A stretch of DNA of 41,710 bases from the IMG/VR virus record IMGVR_UViG_3300025889_000020, positions 1 to 41,710 of that record. One strand, given 5' to 3'. A model generated the notes under the pieces. That model saw only the letters and a program-made list of their open reading frames with translations, was not told the origin of the DNA and searched no databases. Below, in pieces: positions 6,488 to 41,710 of this stretch. The stretch is from a virus. The position numbers and the translations under genes are program-made. Each line of letters starts with the position of its first letter. Positions within the stretch are counted from its first letter, which is position 1.

Positions 6488-8848
6488 TTAAGACAACAGA
6501 TACTTCATACGCTTTACTGCCAAGACATCTAAGTCTCCAAGTTCAGGCACGAGTGGAAGTTCTGCGGTCGGATGGTTGTTGATTTGCTCCATTCTGAACT
6601 CGGTCAGGAGATCAACAGAGAAAGTTTTAGCGTACATCTGTCGTACAATCGTATTACATTTGCGTACATTACAAGCGTGAGTCACAAAGCAGTCATGTAC
6701 GGTAGCCAAGTCGAAGTCAACCTCATTAGCTACTTGATGTACGATACAAGCGTCAAGACTGTGGATAAAGTTAGCAGTAACTGCGTTGCCTTGTCCCTTT
6801 GGGTCAATCTTATCTTCCATCTCATCTACTTGTATAGCAACGCTCAGGTTTTGAAAGACAGATTGTACCTCTACCTTCTTCTTATACTTACGGTAGCTTT
6901 GTACTACTTTAAATCCAGTCGGTGTTGTCCAAGTAATAGCTGAGTCGTAACCTAAAGCTCGTACACTTTCACGCAGGAATGTCATCACTTTATTAACAGG
7001 ACGACACACTTGGTTAGCTAATCGGTTGACGATCTTACTCACCCATATAACAGAGGTAAGCATCTCTCCGGTCGATGTCCACGGATGATTAACTCCTATG
7101 CTTTTAAATAAATCCTGTACCAAATTATAGTGGGTAGCACCGTACGGTCTGTTCATCACTGCTAACTTAGATAACTTACGAGAGAATCCGTACTGCATCC
7201 AAGTCTTAGCCAGCGGTCCACCGTCCTTCTTCAACTCATCGTACACCATATCACTAAACTCTGTGTACATATCATTAGCTTTGTCTTCCTCCACCAAGTT
7301 GCACATCCTACCGATCTCTTTGTCCCGTAATAACAAACTCAGTATCTGCATACCGTTATTGGAACAGTCTTGACGCACAGGTAGGTAGCTAACATATCCG
7401 TACCCCTCTTCTCTGAACTTCTTAAACTCTAAACAGAACCGCAGGAAACAGAACGGATCGGATGCATCTGTCCACCAATCTGTACCGTGTGGATCATTCG
7501 CTGCTTCAAGAATAAAGTTCTGTCGTTTACCTACCCACTCAATACGTTCATCCCGTGTACCTTTTACTCCCCACATGTTCGCACCGTGGACAAATATCGA
7601 CATAACATCCTCTTCATCCACCACCTGTTGACCGTTCTTAAAGTCCAACAAACTCTTAGCTAAATCAGAACCTTGAGGGTGTAAGTAGTACGGAATAGCG
7701 TACACTCTGCCCCTGTAATCACAACGATAAGGAAAGTACAGCTTGTCCCAAGTCTTATATATCTTAGCTAGGTGTAGGATACGACAAGTCTGATACCGCT
7801 TGCTGTTGTTAGCATCGTTCGCTTTCTTGATGTCCTTCTGTTTTAACTTCCAAGCCCGTAGCTCATGCGGACAATCACCTGTGTACCTCGGTTGCTCAGG
7901 TATCGTTCCAAAGTTAGGAATGTTTCCAACAACACGCTCATTCTCCCAACACTTTAGAGTAATATCTAAAATCTCTTTGTTAATTTTCCATTCCACTCTA
8001 GCAAGTTTATTACAAGCAGACATAGCGTGTTGGTAGCTCTTCTCGTAATCTTGAAACCATTGAACGGGCTTACCTGTTATGAACTTCTGTGGAGGCATGT
8101 GCTTAACACTGTACCCACCACCTACTAATCCGTACCAATCAACAGGACGGTCAGGTAAAGCCATCTTAAATACTCTAGTTGTCTCCTTCCACGCATCAAA
8201 CCGCTGTACCCAATCTTTAAATTGTGAAGTAGGTAAGACAGTGCGTTCCGGTTTGTAACTCTTCTGTCCACCTGAATTAAAACCGATCTCCCACAACCCT
8301 GTCTCTAGTCGTATCTCTTCCAATAACCAAGCACCAAGAGCTGTCTTACACTTACTATCCCACAGCGTGAACCGCTCCTCTTCATAGTCGTAGAACTGCT
8401 TCAGCTTCATAGCTTTACTCCTGTCATCCAACGCTAACAGATCAAGCTTGTTCGGATGCATAGTATCTAACGCTTTGTCCCACCTCGCCTGATTCTCAAA
8501 TGCCTTGCCTATCTTGTAAGCCATACGACCAACAGGTAAGTTAAACTGGAGGTGATCAAGAAATGTTTGCAGAGCTAATGCACTGACCTGGTACGGACAC
8601 ATATCTAATATAAAAGTAAGGAACAGCGGTGTAGTGTGCTCGGTGTTACCTCCAAATGTGTACATAAAATCCTCTACCTTCTTACCTAATCTCGGAGCCA
8701 TGACCCGTAACATTCGCTTACTAGCGTCCGTCTTAGATGACTCTCCCTCCTGTCTCAGCTTGGCTTGTCGGTTACGATATTGTGTCCGTCCCCACTCACG
8801 CATTCGCCACACATGACCCCGTTGGTCTTCGTTCGTATCTTTAGTCAT
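6488..8848 (-). CDS. T7-like single-subunit DNA-directed RNA polymerase
   Basis: A 786-residue polymerase, about 100 residues shorter than T7 RNAP (883). The palm aspartates align as D494 in VRQDCSNNG (T7 D537) and D719 in ATVHDCF (T7 D812). The fingers helix SRKLSKLAVMNRPYG supplies K561 and Y569, with the same spacing as T7 K631 and Y639. YFPYRCDYRGRVYAIPYYL (371-389) is another family block. It would transcribe the replication, structural and packaging genes from phage promoters. The start ATGACTAA overlaps the stop of the preceding small gene. The shortening is mostly in the N-terminal promoter-recognition half, so promoter contacts may differ from T7. Confidence 0.97.
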   Translation of the reverse strand: MTKDTNEDQRGHVWRMREWGRTQYRNRQAKLRQEGESSKTDASKRMLRVMAPRLGKKVEDFMYTFGGNTEHTTPLFLTFILDMCPYQVSALALQTFLDHLQFNLPVGRMAYKIGKAFENQARWDKALDTMHPNKLDLLALDDRSKAMKLKQFYDYEEERFTLWDSKCKTALGAWLLEEIRLETGLWEIGFNSGGQKSYKPERTVLPTSQFKDWVQRFDAWKETTRVFKMALPDRPVDWYGLVGGGYSVKHMPPQKFITGKPVQWFQDYEKSYQHAMSACNKLARVEWKINKEILDITLKCWENERVVGNIPNFGTIPEQPRYTGDCPHELRAWKLKQKDIKKANDANNSKRYQTCRILHLAKIYKTWDKLYFPYRCDYRGRVYAIPYYLHPQGSDLAKSLLDFKNGQQVVDEEDVMSIFVHGANMWGVKGTRDERIEWVGKRQNFILEAANDPHGTDWWTDASDPFCFLRFCLEFKKFREEGYGYVSYLPVRQDCSNNGMQILSLLLRDKEIGRMCNLVEEDKANDMYTEFSDMVYDELKKDGGPLAKTWMQYGFSRKLSKLAVMNRPYGATHYNLVQDLFKSIGVNHPWTSTGEMLTSVIWVSKIVNRLANQVCRPVNKVMTFLRESVRALGYDSAITWTTPTGFKVVQSYRKYKKKVEVQSVFQNLSVAIQVDEMEDKIDPKGQGNAVTANFIHSLDACIVHQVANEVDFDLATVHDCFVTHACNVRKCNTIVRQMYAKTFSVDLLTEFRMEQINNHPTAELPLVPELGDLDVLAVKRMKYLLS

Positions 8849-40389: not shown

Positions 40390-41550
40390 TCATCTTAGTT
40401 GTTGTATTAATGTATTGAATGCTAGCTCACAGGTATCTGGTACTACTCCGTTGCCCAAGAGCCTAAGTCTGTCCACCCTGTAGGAAGTCCCATTAGCTGT
40501 TCCACCCAATTCACATTGAGTTTTGCCTTCGCTTCTTTTGCATTCGGGTACTCCTTCAGATGAGCTTGTGTTGGAAGACCTACTGAAAACTTCTGCCCCG
40601 TCTTCCTGATGTTCTCTCCGTTCCTCAGTATATGATTCTCTACATCTCTGTAGTCTCGGCTTTTTGGAGTCAACCACTGTTCTTGGTTCTTCCCACTCAT
40701 GCTGCTCTTCCCCTGGTCTTGCTGGATATTTAGTTTTGTATAAACCTCGCACGATTTCTCGTCTACTTGTTCCCGAAGATTCGCTGGTGTTGTTCTTCCT
40801 TTCCTCGCTCCTGTAGCTTGTTTGATTAACCCCTCTTCTGTTCGTGGTGGTAGATGATCCATCGTGTTTGGTGTAGCCCAATTCTGTTTCGCTAACTTCT
40901 CCACTACTCCTGGTAGGCTCGCAAACTTTATATTGTTCTCCTCTCCCCTCTCGTCCTTGTATTCGTTCGCTTGCTTCCCCTTCCAATCTCTCGATGTTGG
41001 TGTTGGATAACTCTGCAAGGATGAACACTCGTTTTCTTTGGTGCGGTGCACCGACTTCAGACGCTGAGAATACTCCCCACGTACAGCGGTAACCTCTTTC
41101 TTCCAAGTCTCCGAGGACATATTTAAGTACCGATTCTCCGTCCCCTGTTTTAGCTGAGATGATTCCTTCAACATTTTCGAGGAAGACATATCGTGGTCGC
41201 ATAGCTGTAACTCCATCTGCGATCCACGGGTACAAGTGTCGTGGGTCTTCTGTTGCTTGTCGTTTCCCTGCACTGCTAAATGGTTGACAAGGGAATCCTG
41301 CACTGAGCACGGTAACCCGACCACTAAGTTCTCGATACGGAAATGTCTTGAGGTCCGTGAAAACAGGAGCTTCATCCATTTGTCCCGCTTCCATTTTCGC
41401 AATAAGGTTGGCAACTGCATAAGCTTCGATCTCACAGTGAGCGATAGTTCGCAAGTTTGGAATAGCTCTTTTAAGTCCGCTTCCGATTCCGTCGTATCCG
41501 CTGCACAAAGAGATGTAGGTAGGAACACTAATTGTTTCATTGTTATTCAC
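40390..41550 (-). CDS. C5-cytosine DNA methyltransferase
   Basis: A 386-residue enzyme with motif I LCSGYDGIGSGL (15-26), motif IV GFPCQPFSSAG with catalytic Cys88, motif VI ENVE (125-128), motif VIII QRKRVFIL (171-178), a region 179-345 in the place of the target-recognition domain, and motifs IX-X RVDRLRLLGNGVVP (358-371). It methylates the C5 position of cytosine in an unknown sequence, perhaps to protect phage DNA from host restriction. The frame is closed just upstream of the GTG at 41550, so that start is favoured; it overlaps the end of the DUF5664 gene. No cognate restriction gene is present. Its DNA carries a second 365-codon frame (40443-41540). Confidence 0.93.
   Translation of the reverse strand: MNNNETISVPTYISLCSGYDGIGSGLKRAIPNLRTIAHCEIEAYAVANLIAKMEAGQMDEAPVFTDLKTFPYRELSGRVTVLSAGFPCQPFSSAGKRQATEDPRHLYPWIADGVTAMRPRYVFLENVEGIISAKTGDGESVLKYVLGDLEERGYRCTWGVFSASEVGAPHQRKRVFILAELSNTNIERLEGEASERIQGREGRGEQYKVCEPTRSSGEVSETELGYTKHDGSSTTTNRRGVNQTSYRSEERKNNTSESSGTSRREIVRGLYKTKYPARPGEEQHEWEEPRTVVDSKKPRLQRCRESYTEERREHQEDGAEVFSRSSNTSSSEGVPECKRSEGKTQCELGGTANGTSYRVDRLRLLGNGVVPDTCELAFNTLIQQLR
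40443..41540 (-). CDS. Overlapping second frame of the methyltransferase gene
   Basis: From an ATG at 41540, ten bases after the methyltransferase GTG, the other frame stays open for 365 codons and is almost fully nested in that gene. Its C-terminal half is not random: SYPTPTSRDWKG (177-188), NWATPNTMDHLPPR (220-233), QWLTPKSRDYRDVE (288-301) and LNVNWVEQLMGLPTGWTDL (341-359). By my recollection these resemble TRD-region and C-terminal parts of phage C5 methyltransferases and a phage protein family with MDHLPPR. Either both frames are translated, or a frameshift can join the catalytic part to this C-terminus. GAAGTG lies nine bases before the ATG as a weak ribosome site. Existence of the product is unproven. 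Confidence 0.5.
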   Translation of the reverse strand: MKQLVFLPTSLCAADTTESEADLKELFQTCELSLTVRSKLMQLPTLLRKWKRDKWMKLLFSRTSRHFRIENLVVGLPCSVQDSLVNHLAVQGNDKQQKTHDTCTRGSQMELQLCDHDMSSSKMLKESSQLKQGTENRYLNMSSETWKKEVTAVRGEYSQRLKSVHRTKENECSSLQSYPTPTSRDWKGKQANEYKDERGEENNIKFASLPGVVEKLAKQNWATPNTMDHLPPRTEEGLIKQATGARKGRTTPANLREQVDEKSCEVYTKLNIQQDQGKSSMSGKNQEQWLTPKSRDYRDVENHILRNGENIRKTGQKFSVGLPTQAHLKEYPNAKEAKAKLNVNWVEQLMGLPTGWTDLGSWATE

Positions 41551-41710
41551 TTCTATAACTTATATCTGATAGTTCTTGTGGCAGCTTTCCTTCTTTGATC
41601 TTTTGCTCCGTCCATATCCAAGCTGACGCATTCCACAGTATAGCACCCGCATGGTCTTCAGAGTTGTCCCCCTCAGCCAGCCCCAACAAATGTCTAAACA
41701 TCGAGTCATA
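41543..41710 (-). CDS. DUF5664 / dATP-dGTP diphosphohydrolase-like protein, C-terminal part
   Basis: This is the 3' part of the gene described at 1-325; 41584-41710 repeats bases 1-127. The frame is in phase from 41710 and stops at 41543-41545. It encodes the final 55 residues, with RHLLGLAEGDNSEDHAGAI, an aromatic WNASAWIWTEQ helix and LPQELSD. The stop overlaps the GTG start of the methyltransferase by eight bases. Confidence 0.85.
   Translation of the reverse strand, partial: YDSMFRHLLGLAEGDNSEDHAGAILWNASAWIWTEQKIKEGKLPQELSDISYRSE
41584..41710. repeat. Terminal direct repeat, right copy (contig overlap)
   Basis: Exact copy of bases 1-127. Removing it leaves a circular sequence of 41,583 bases in which the DUF5664 gene is intact. 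See the left copy for the reading of its length. Confidence 0.95.

Follow-up and report, generated by a model that had tools for sequence, protein, structure and literature searches.

A nested second reading frame in a phage cytosine-C5 methyltransferase gene as the probable second chain of a split enzyme

Why does a phage methyltransferase gene stay open in a second reading frame, and what might that frame encode? The question was raised by a 41,710-nucleotide stretch of viral DNA (positions 1 to 41,710 of IMG/VR record IMGVR_UViG_3300025889_000020), which we refer to as the window. Frame 1 of its minus strand (40390..41550) encodes a C5-cytosine methyltransferase of 386 aa with a GTG start and motifs I–VIII and X, here called the alpha chain. 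Frame 2 (+1) of the same strand (40443..41540) encodes the beta chain, 365 aa with an ATG start, which is wholly nested within the alpha gene. A preliminary description of this DNA had pointed out that frame 2 is open along the full length of the methyltransferase gene from 10 bases past the first start, and had listed four places with protein-like sequence in both frames; we confirmed the open frame, whose ATG lies 10 nt downstream of the alpha GTG, and found all four places as described. Frame 1 matched the profiles PF00145 (3.7e-36) and phrog_363 (1.8e-51), and frame 2, when compared with PHROG, matched phrog_1008, "DNA methyltransferase" (3.5e-22). The remainder of the window resembles a lytic-type phage, with genes for a single-subunit RNA polymerase, DNA polymerase, primase-helicase, terminase, head-tail adaptor, and internal virion protein. 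The RNA polymerase (6488-8848; phrog_414, 4e-156) also has an N4-like RNA polymerase match.

We consider it highly likely, judging from the conserved sequence features described below, that this locus encodes a two-polypeptide cytosine-C5 methyltransferase of the M.EcoHK31I kind, expressed from nested genes. The motifs that define C5-methyltransferases (PF00145) occur in the expected order and all on alpha: motif I (SLCSGYDGIG, 41482..41511), motif IV with the catalytic PCQ (GFPCQPFS, 41275..41298), motif VI with ENV (LENVEG, 41164..41181), motif VIII with QRKR (HQRKRV, 41026..41043), and motif X (RLRLLGNGVVP, 40438..40470), each on the minus strand. Motif IX, which lies between the recognition region and motif X, is absent from the alpha chain of the window. 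A profile search aligned alpha to residues 12-182 of M.HhaI; an alignment to 3g7u spanned the whole alpha length and was not adopted as a template. The AlphaFold model of alpha was confident only at approximately residues 10-180 and 360-386, with pLDDT under about 50 across most of the middle, and it matched the catalytic domains of M.HhaI, M.HaeIII, and DNMT1 (Foldseek).

Frame 2 contains far fewer stop codons than its composition predicts. The preliminary description had estimated the chance of such an opening under equal base frequencies; the opening is indeed not due to chance, but that null is too simple. With the frame-1 protein and its codon usage held constant and synonymous codons shuffled (300 shuffles), frame 2 of the window was expected to carry 8.5 stops, with a shuffle minimum of 2, and carried none, while the +2 frame had 24 stops compared with 26.3 expected. 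By the same synonymous shuffling, 13 of 14 other relatives were open at full length with P(0) ≤ 0.01, the exception being L020, which has a single frame-2 stop. Across the variable region of 155 distinct main-class relatives, frame 2 was open in 155 out of 155, with 0 stops in 22,028 codons, compared with a stop rate of 5.35% in the third frame over the same region. We note that similarity to the window guided part of the collection of relatives, which are also related to one another, so the 160 loci considered here are not a random sample and their counts are not independent events. Stops in the second frame of relatives, which the preliminary description had named as the sign of a noncoding frame, were almost absent both in the 14 shuffled relatives and in the 155 main-class loci. 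Chance opening of frame 2 was ruled out under this composition-aware null, by the synonymous shuffles and by the stop expectations.

Stop expectations conditioned on the opposite chain gave a similar depletion in each frame. Over motifs I–VIII, 285 beta stops were expected given the alpha amino acids and 6 were observed, confined to 4 of 154 loci. In the variable region, 724 alpha stops were expected given the beta amino acids and none was observed, a figure conditioned on the 150 loci without an alpha interruption; with the interrupted loci included, all 155 had 64 observed and 798 expected. Ordinary single-chain phage enzymes carried 109 +1 stops in 2,442 codons. Openness over motifs I–VIII alone is the weaker half of this evidence, because ordinary single-chain enzymes can show long +1 runs there: three single-chain phage C5-methyltransferases had runs of 171–188 codons over the catalytic part, yet 13–17 stops overall. 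Among close relatives, only L020 and L021 have a beta-frame stop inside the catalytic overlap. In both it lies at core codon 96, and an in-frame start follows it.

Substitution patterns indicate which frame is constrained in which part of the gene. The wobble test separates the frames, as the alpha wobble position is beta position 2 and the beta wobble position is alpha position 1. Alpha-dominated ratios (1.5–2.4) were found for motifs I (1.94), IV (2.20), VI (1.51), VIII (1.86), and X (2.38), and for a WPARPGExQHEWEEPR island within the variable region (YPARPGEEQHEWEEPR, 40681..40728, minus strand; 2.03). The opposite pattern, with a ratio of 0.30, was found for a beta segment resembling motif IX (LNVNWVEQLMGLPTGWTDL, 40464..40520, minus strand), which lies at +1 wherever it was detected in relatives. 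In the beta modules described below, amino-acid identity was 82% for beta versus 46% for alpha at 70–80% nucleotide identity. This dominance of beta persisted when pairs were chosen on alpha similarity at nucleotide identities of at least 60%; below 60%, alpha-picked pairs look alpha-like and beta-picked pairs look beta-like, and only closer pairs are informative. Four-fold sites of alpha over motifs I–VIII were more conserved than those of flanking genes on the same contigs (0.521 versus 0.375 at 50–60% protein identity, and 0.547 versus 0.434 at 60–70%). Frame-2 similarity also exceeded a synonymous-resampling null in every relative pair (minimum Z of 3.5), although this null treats synonymous sites as saturated and so gives inflated Z values for close pairs, for which the control genes are the better comparison.

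By resampling, the wobble test, and four-fold sites, substitution in frame 2 is non-neutral, and its homologues extend far outside the exact overlaps; the earlier view of frame 2 as a real, conserved coding frame is borne out. The same description had placed the recognition region in both frames, a claim that is not supported, since constraint on the modules and motif IX is confined to frame 2 and the corresponding middle of alpha is predicted with pLDDT below about 50. We give almost no credence to the view that frame 2 is an untranslated shadow, left open by composition and by the conserved frame-1 protein. The +1 runs of 171–188 codons in some single-chain enzymes are in keeping with such a shadow, but the synonymous shuffles, the beta-dominated substitution in the modules and motif IX, and a beta frame that is intact in five loci where alpha is broken all argue against it. 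A frame 2 that merely shadows the frame-1 protein was rejected on the beta-wobble variation in the modules and motif IX, and on beta being open where alpha is broken.

In the beta chain, "WPTPxxxD" modules lie between motifs VIII and X and are followed by the segment "LNPxWVEQLMGLPxGW". We regard this segment as motif IX-like from its position and resemblance; it sits where canonical enzymes have motif IX, and can be compared with RRLTPRECFRLQGFSDE in L220. Modules number 0–7 per gene with a median of 42 codons and start with [W/Y/F/L]xTP, although their boundaries come from a regular expression and the start motif joins them into one large single-linkage cluster, so these counts are approximate. 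The window has three, all on the minus strand: module 1 (YPTPTSRDWKG...KLAKQN, 40881..41009), module 2 (WATPNTMDHLPPR..., 40728..40880), and module 3 (WLTPKSRDYRDVE..., 40521..40676). Related modules sit at different positions in different genes, and module order and number vary between close relatives. Module 1 of the window, for example, recurs at other positions in other loci and is the last module in the Bacteroidetes-like phage contigs L034, L035, and L038. Each module probably recognizes a DNA site, and the recognition part of beta is probably modular and multispecific. Read in frame 1, the modules give sequences (ADTxxR..., SNTNIERLEGE) that seem to be a by-product, held free of stops so that translation runs on to motif X.

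Database searches added little to the description of beta. Pfam gave no C5-methyltransferase domain in beta or in IX+X segments, Pfam and NCBIfam gave nothing above cut-off for beta (matches to CBM_5_12_2 and a seadornavirus family fell below theirs), and searching PDB sequences with the beta profile returned no meaningful match. The AlphaFold model of beta alone was poor (pTM 0.24) and too poor for a fold search, with confidence at motif IX and at a helix of residues 143-165 (pLDDT about 85–91). This core helix (SETWKKEVTAVRGEYSQRLKS, 41052..41114, minus strand) overlaps alpha motifs VI–VIII, and its W146 is invariant in A1 and A4.

Natural variants of the layout bear on whether beta belongs to the same enzyme as alpha. 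Among distinct loci with both motifs IX and X, IX is at +1 in 160 out of 160, while X belongs to alpha in 155 of them and to beta in the other 5 (L154, L171, L179, L193, and L195). Motif X has also moved into the beta frame in L219, L223, and L224. In X-in-beta loci, alpha stops soon after the start of the variable region or after WPARPGExQHEWEEPR. A further five of the 155 loci (L014, L026, L112, L115, and L116) have alpha broken solely in the variable region by 6–18 stops, approximately the number expected without constraint. In these five, motif X follows an internal ATG, with an AAGGAG-type Shine-Dalgarno sequence 6–8 nt ahead in four, and we interpret them as apparent three-chain methyltransferases from this arrangement of stops and starts. 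In the Mycobacteroides abscessus prophage L200 (1483-2838), motifs I–VIII, several PTP modules, IX, and X occur in one frame. In phages Euratis, Spino, and Schuy, one ORF has motifs I–VIII and an overlapping +1 ORF has the modules, IX, and X. Taken together, the single-frame, X-in-beta, and three-piece variants indicate that the second chain completes the first. Two other arrangements were seen. The Gordonia phage Rabbitrun (L221:1489-2352) has IX and X in the catalytic frame and a PTP module in the +1 frame, which then stops, and the Paenibacillus polymyxa plasmid pAP1 (L217:1317-2807) has two +1 motif-IX-like segments with stops between them, as if by tandem duplication.

Beta could instead be a protein with a separate job, such as anti-defence, whose gene happens to overprint that of a methyltransferase able to work alone. 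Conservation of both frames, and a beta start that is often its own, would suit such a protein. However, alpha has neither motif IX nor a folded recognition domain, the modules and IX are located exactly between VIII and X, motif X can sit in beta (five loci), and the single-chain relative L200 has modules and IX in frame, all of which make an independent beta protein improbable. A single polypeptide made by double ribosomal frameshifting, from alpha to beta after motif VIII and back before X, would account for the colinearity of I–VIII, modules, IX, and X once the frames are spliced. We judge this route to be quite improbable, as the open stretch of both frames greatly exceeds what shifting would require, beta starts at an ATG of its own, motif X in three-piece loci has a separate start, and no conserved slippery sequence stood out near VIII. 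This last observation comes from scanning the border between VIII and the modules by eye in 124 aligned loci, without a formal frameshift search. Of the two products that the preliminary description had proposed, two proteins are the likeliest outcome of the two frames on present sequence evidence; isoforms made by frameshifting fit poorly with a double shift being required, beta having its own start, and no slippery site being conserved.

The same description had also suggested that specificity could be switched by an indel. Differences in module order and number between close relatives could be read as phase-variable or indel-switched specificity, but the changes are whole-module exchanges that preserve both frames, and none of the 155 main-class genes has a shifted module array. 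Switching of this type is unsupported because a single indel would disrupt both chains, and we assign it very little probability.

An own beta ATG near the alpha start is conserved among relatives, and in 62 of 156 loci it overlaps the sole start available to alpha, a GTG that begins two bases later (ATGTG). The alpha GTG of the window has no clear Shine-Dalgarno sequence. The TAA of a short upstream ORF (41543..41701, minus strand) falls between the two starts of the window, so that both lie within coupling distance, in keeping with translational coupling. Overlapping AUG and GUG codons (AUGUG) can open two frames in Escherichia coli, as in pqiA and tamA, where the second frame yields short peptides of unknown use (PMC9841429). 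By comparison, the second frame of the phage loci is predicted to encode an entire conserved chain, in no fewer than 62 of them. The window differs from the E. coli AUGUG sites in that its GTG and ATG are 10 nt apart.

These features suggest how a two-chain enzyme may work. Alpha would form the large catalytic domain, with SAM binding, the PCQ nucleophile, ENV, VIII, and the C-terminal motif X helix, and its middle third may be a poorly structured linker kept stop-free so that VIII and X share one chain. Beta would supply tandem modules of approximately 40–50 residues as target-recognition units, and its motif IX would pack the small domain onto the large domain. The two chains could then join on phage DNA, methylating cytosines at sites recognized by the modules and most likely shielding the DNA from host restriction. 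Phages may exchange modules with both frames kept open, which could change or add specificities. We infer expression of both chains, their assembly, DNA recognition by the modules, and the anti-restriction role from sequence. More broadly, we lean towards a phage-wide class in which recognition is carried by shuffled dual-coded cassettes, specificity changes by cassette exchange under two-frame constraint, and natural one-, two-, and three-chain versions occur. As part of this reading, each cassette would comprise a beta recognition module and a stop-free alpha linker.

The layout is spread across phages and is annotated unevenly. Both nested frames are annotated in Kagunavirus K1G, fKuEco01, Paenibacillus larvae phages, Tadhana, and PhiXhv-18. 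The Mte8-like proteins of Kagunavirus and the second "DNA-cytosine methyltransferase" of Paenibacillus larvae phages correspond to the same +1 nested beta frame and are annotated without explanation. In the open-access literature, we found nothing treating these proteins as a subunit and no paper on overlapping phage methyltransferase genes. The layout also occurs in N15, BcepC6B, Lc-Nu, and a Paenibacillus plasmid. Only alpha is annotated in N15 (gene 58) and BcepC6B (gp33), and only beta in an Acidovorax phage (gp46) and Salmonella phage W5 (orf62). A +1 beta frame carrying modules and IX, missing from the annotation, overlaps N15 gene 58 (L213:912-1907), and this locus would be a handy model for laboratory work. 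At L201:1484-2650 and L203:1442-2371, the beta frame alone is annotated as a methyltransferase, and the catalytic alpha is unannotated. A strict pattern matched nine cellular contigs, too selective a scan for this number to measure spread in cellular genomes; seven of the nine hold the catalytic part, with IX at +1 in all seven. Ten broader phage C5-methyltransferases further down the ranking comprised three X-in-beta splits, six single chains, and one mixed form (Rabbitrun). The split layout is frequent, not universal, among phage C5-methyltransferases.

To our knowledge, it is rare outside small viruses for two frames of one strand to overlap at length with both conserved and each encoding part of a single enzyme. 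With approximately 160 related examples, one can measure how constraint is divided between two frames and how recognition modules travel, and the same loci allow study of how a protein cut into two or three chains persists. Additionally, for many phage methyltransferases the annotation covers just one half, and a cloned annotated half would be expected to be inactive.

Two-chain enzymes of this kind are already known; what appears to be new is the length and modular build of beta, the AUGUG starts shared by the two frames, the three-piece versions, and the spread across phages. Nesting of the beta gene in another frame is a defining trait of the M.EcoHK31I type, to which M.EaeI also belongs, and Lee et al. 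1995 reportedly described the small-chain gene of M.EcoHK31I as nested in the large one in the other frame. The window shares this trait, with beta nested in alpha in another frame. Serial recognition modules also have precedent: Trautner et al. 1996 reportedly described several in series between VIII and IX in the multispecific phage C5-methyltransferases of the SPR, SPbeta, and phi3T type. Those enzymes are single-chain and single-frame, whereas the window family is split over two frames, and the likeness is one of serial layout.

Like the enzyme proposed for the window, M.AquI consists of two overlapping chains of one C5-methyltransferase, and its split point lies inside the variable region (PMC3404938). 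The M.AquI-like placement of IX and X together on the second chain is found in the five loci with X in beta and in Euratis, Spino, and Schuy; the window, in contrast, has X in alpha, as do 155 of 160 loci. In M.EcoHK31I, the larger chain has I–VIII and X and the smaller chain has IX (PMC3404938), the same division of motifs as in the window and its relatives. The recognition domain of M.EcoHK31I was predicted to lie in the large subunit, not in beta (PMC3404938), whereas the window family has its constrained modules in beta. Compared by description with M.EcoHK31I, the window family also includes three-piece and X-in-beta forms. Its beta further differs from that of M.EcoHK31I in nearly spanning the alpha gene, in carrying 0–7 modules, and in often sharing an AUGUG start with alpha.
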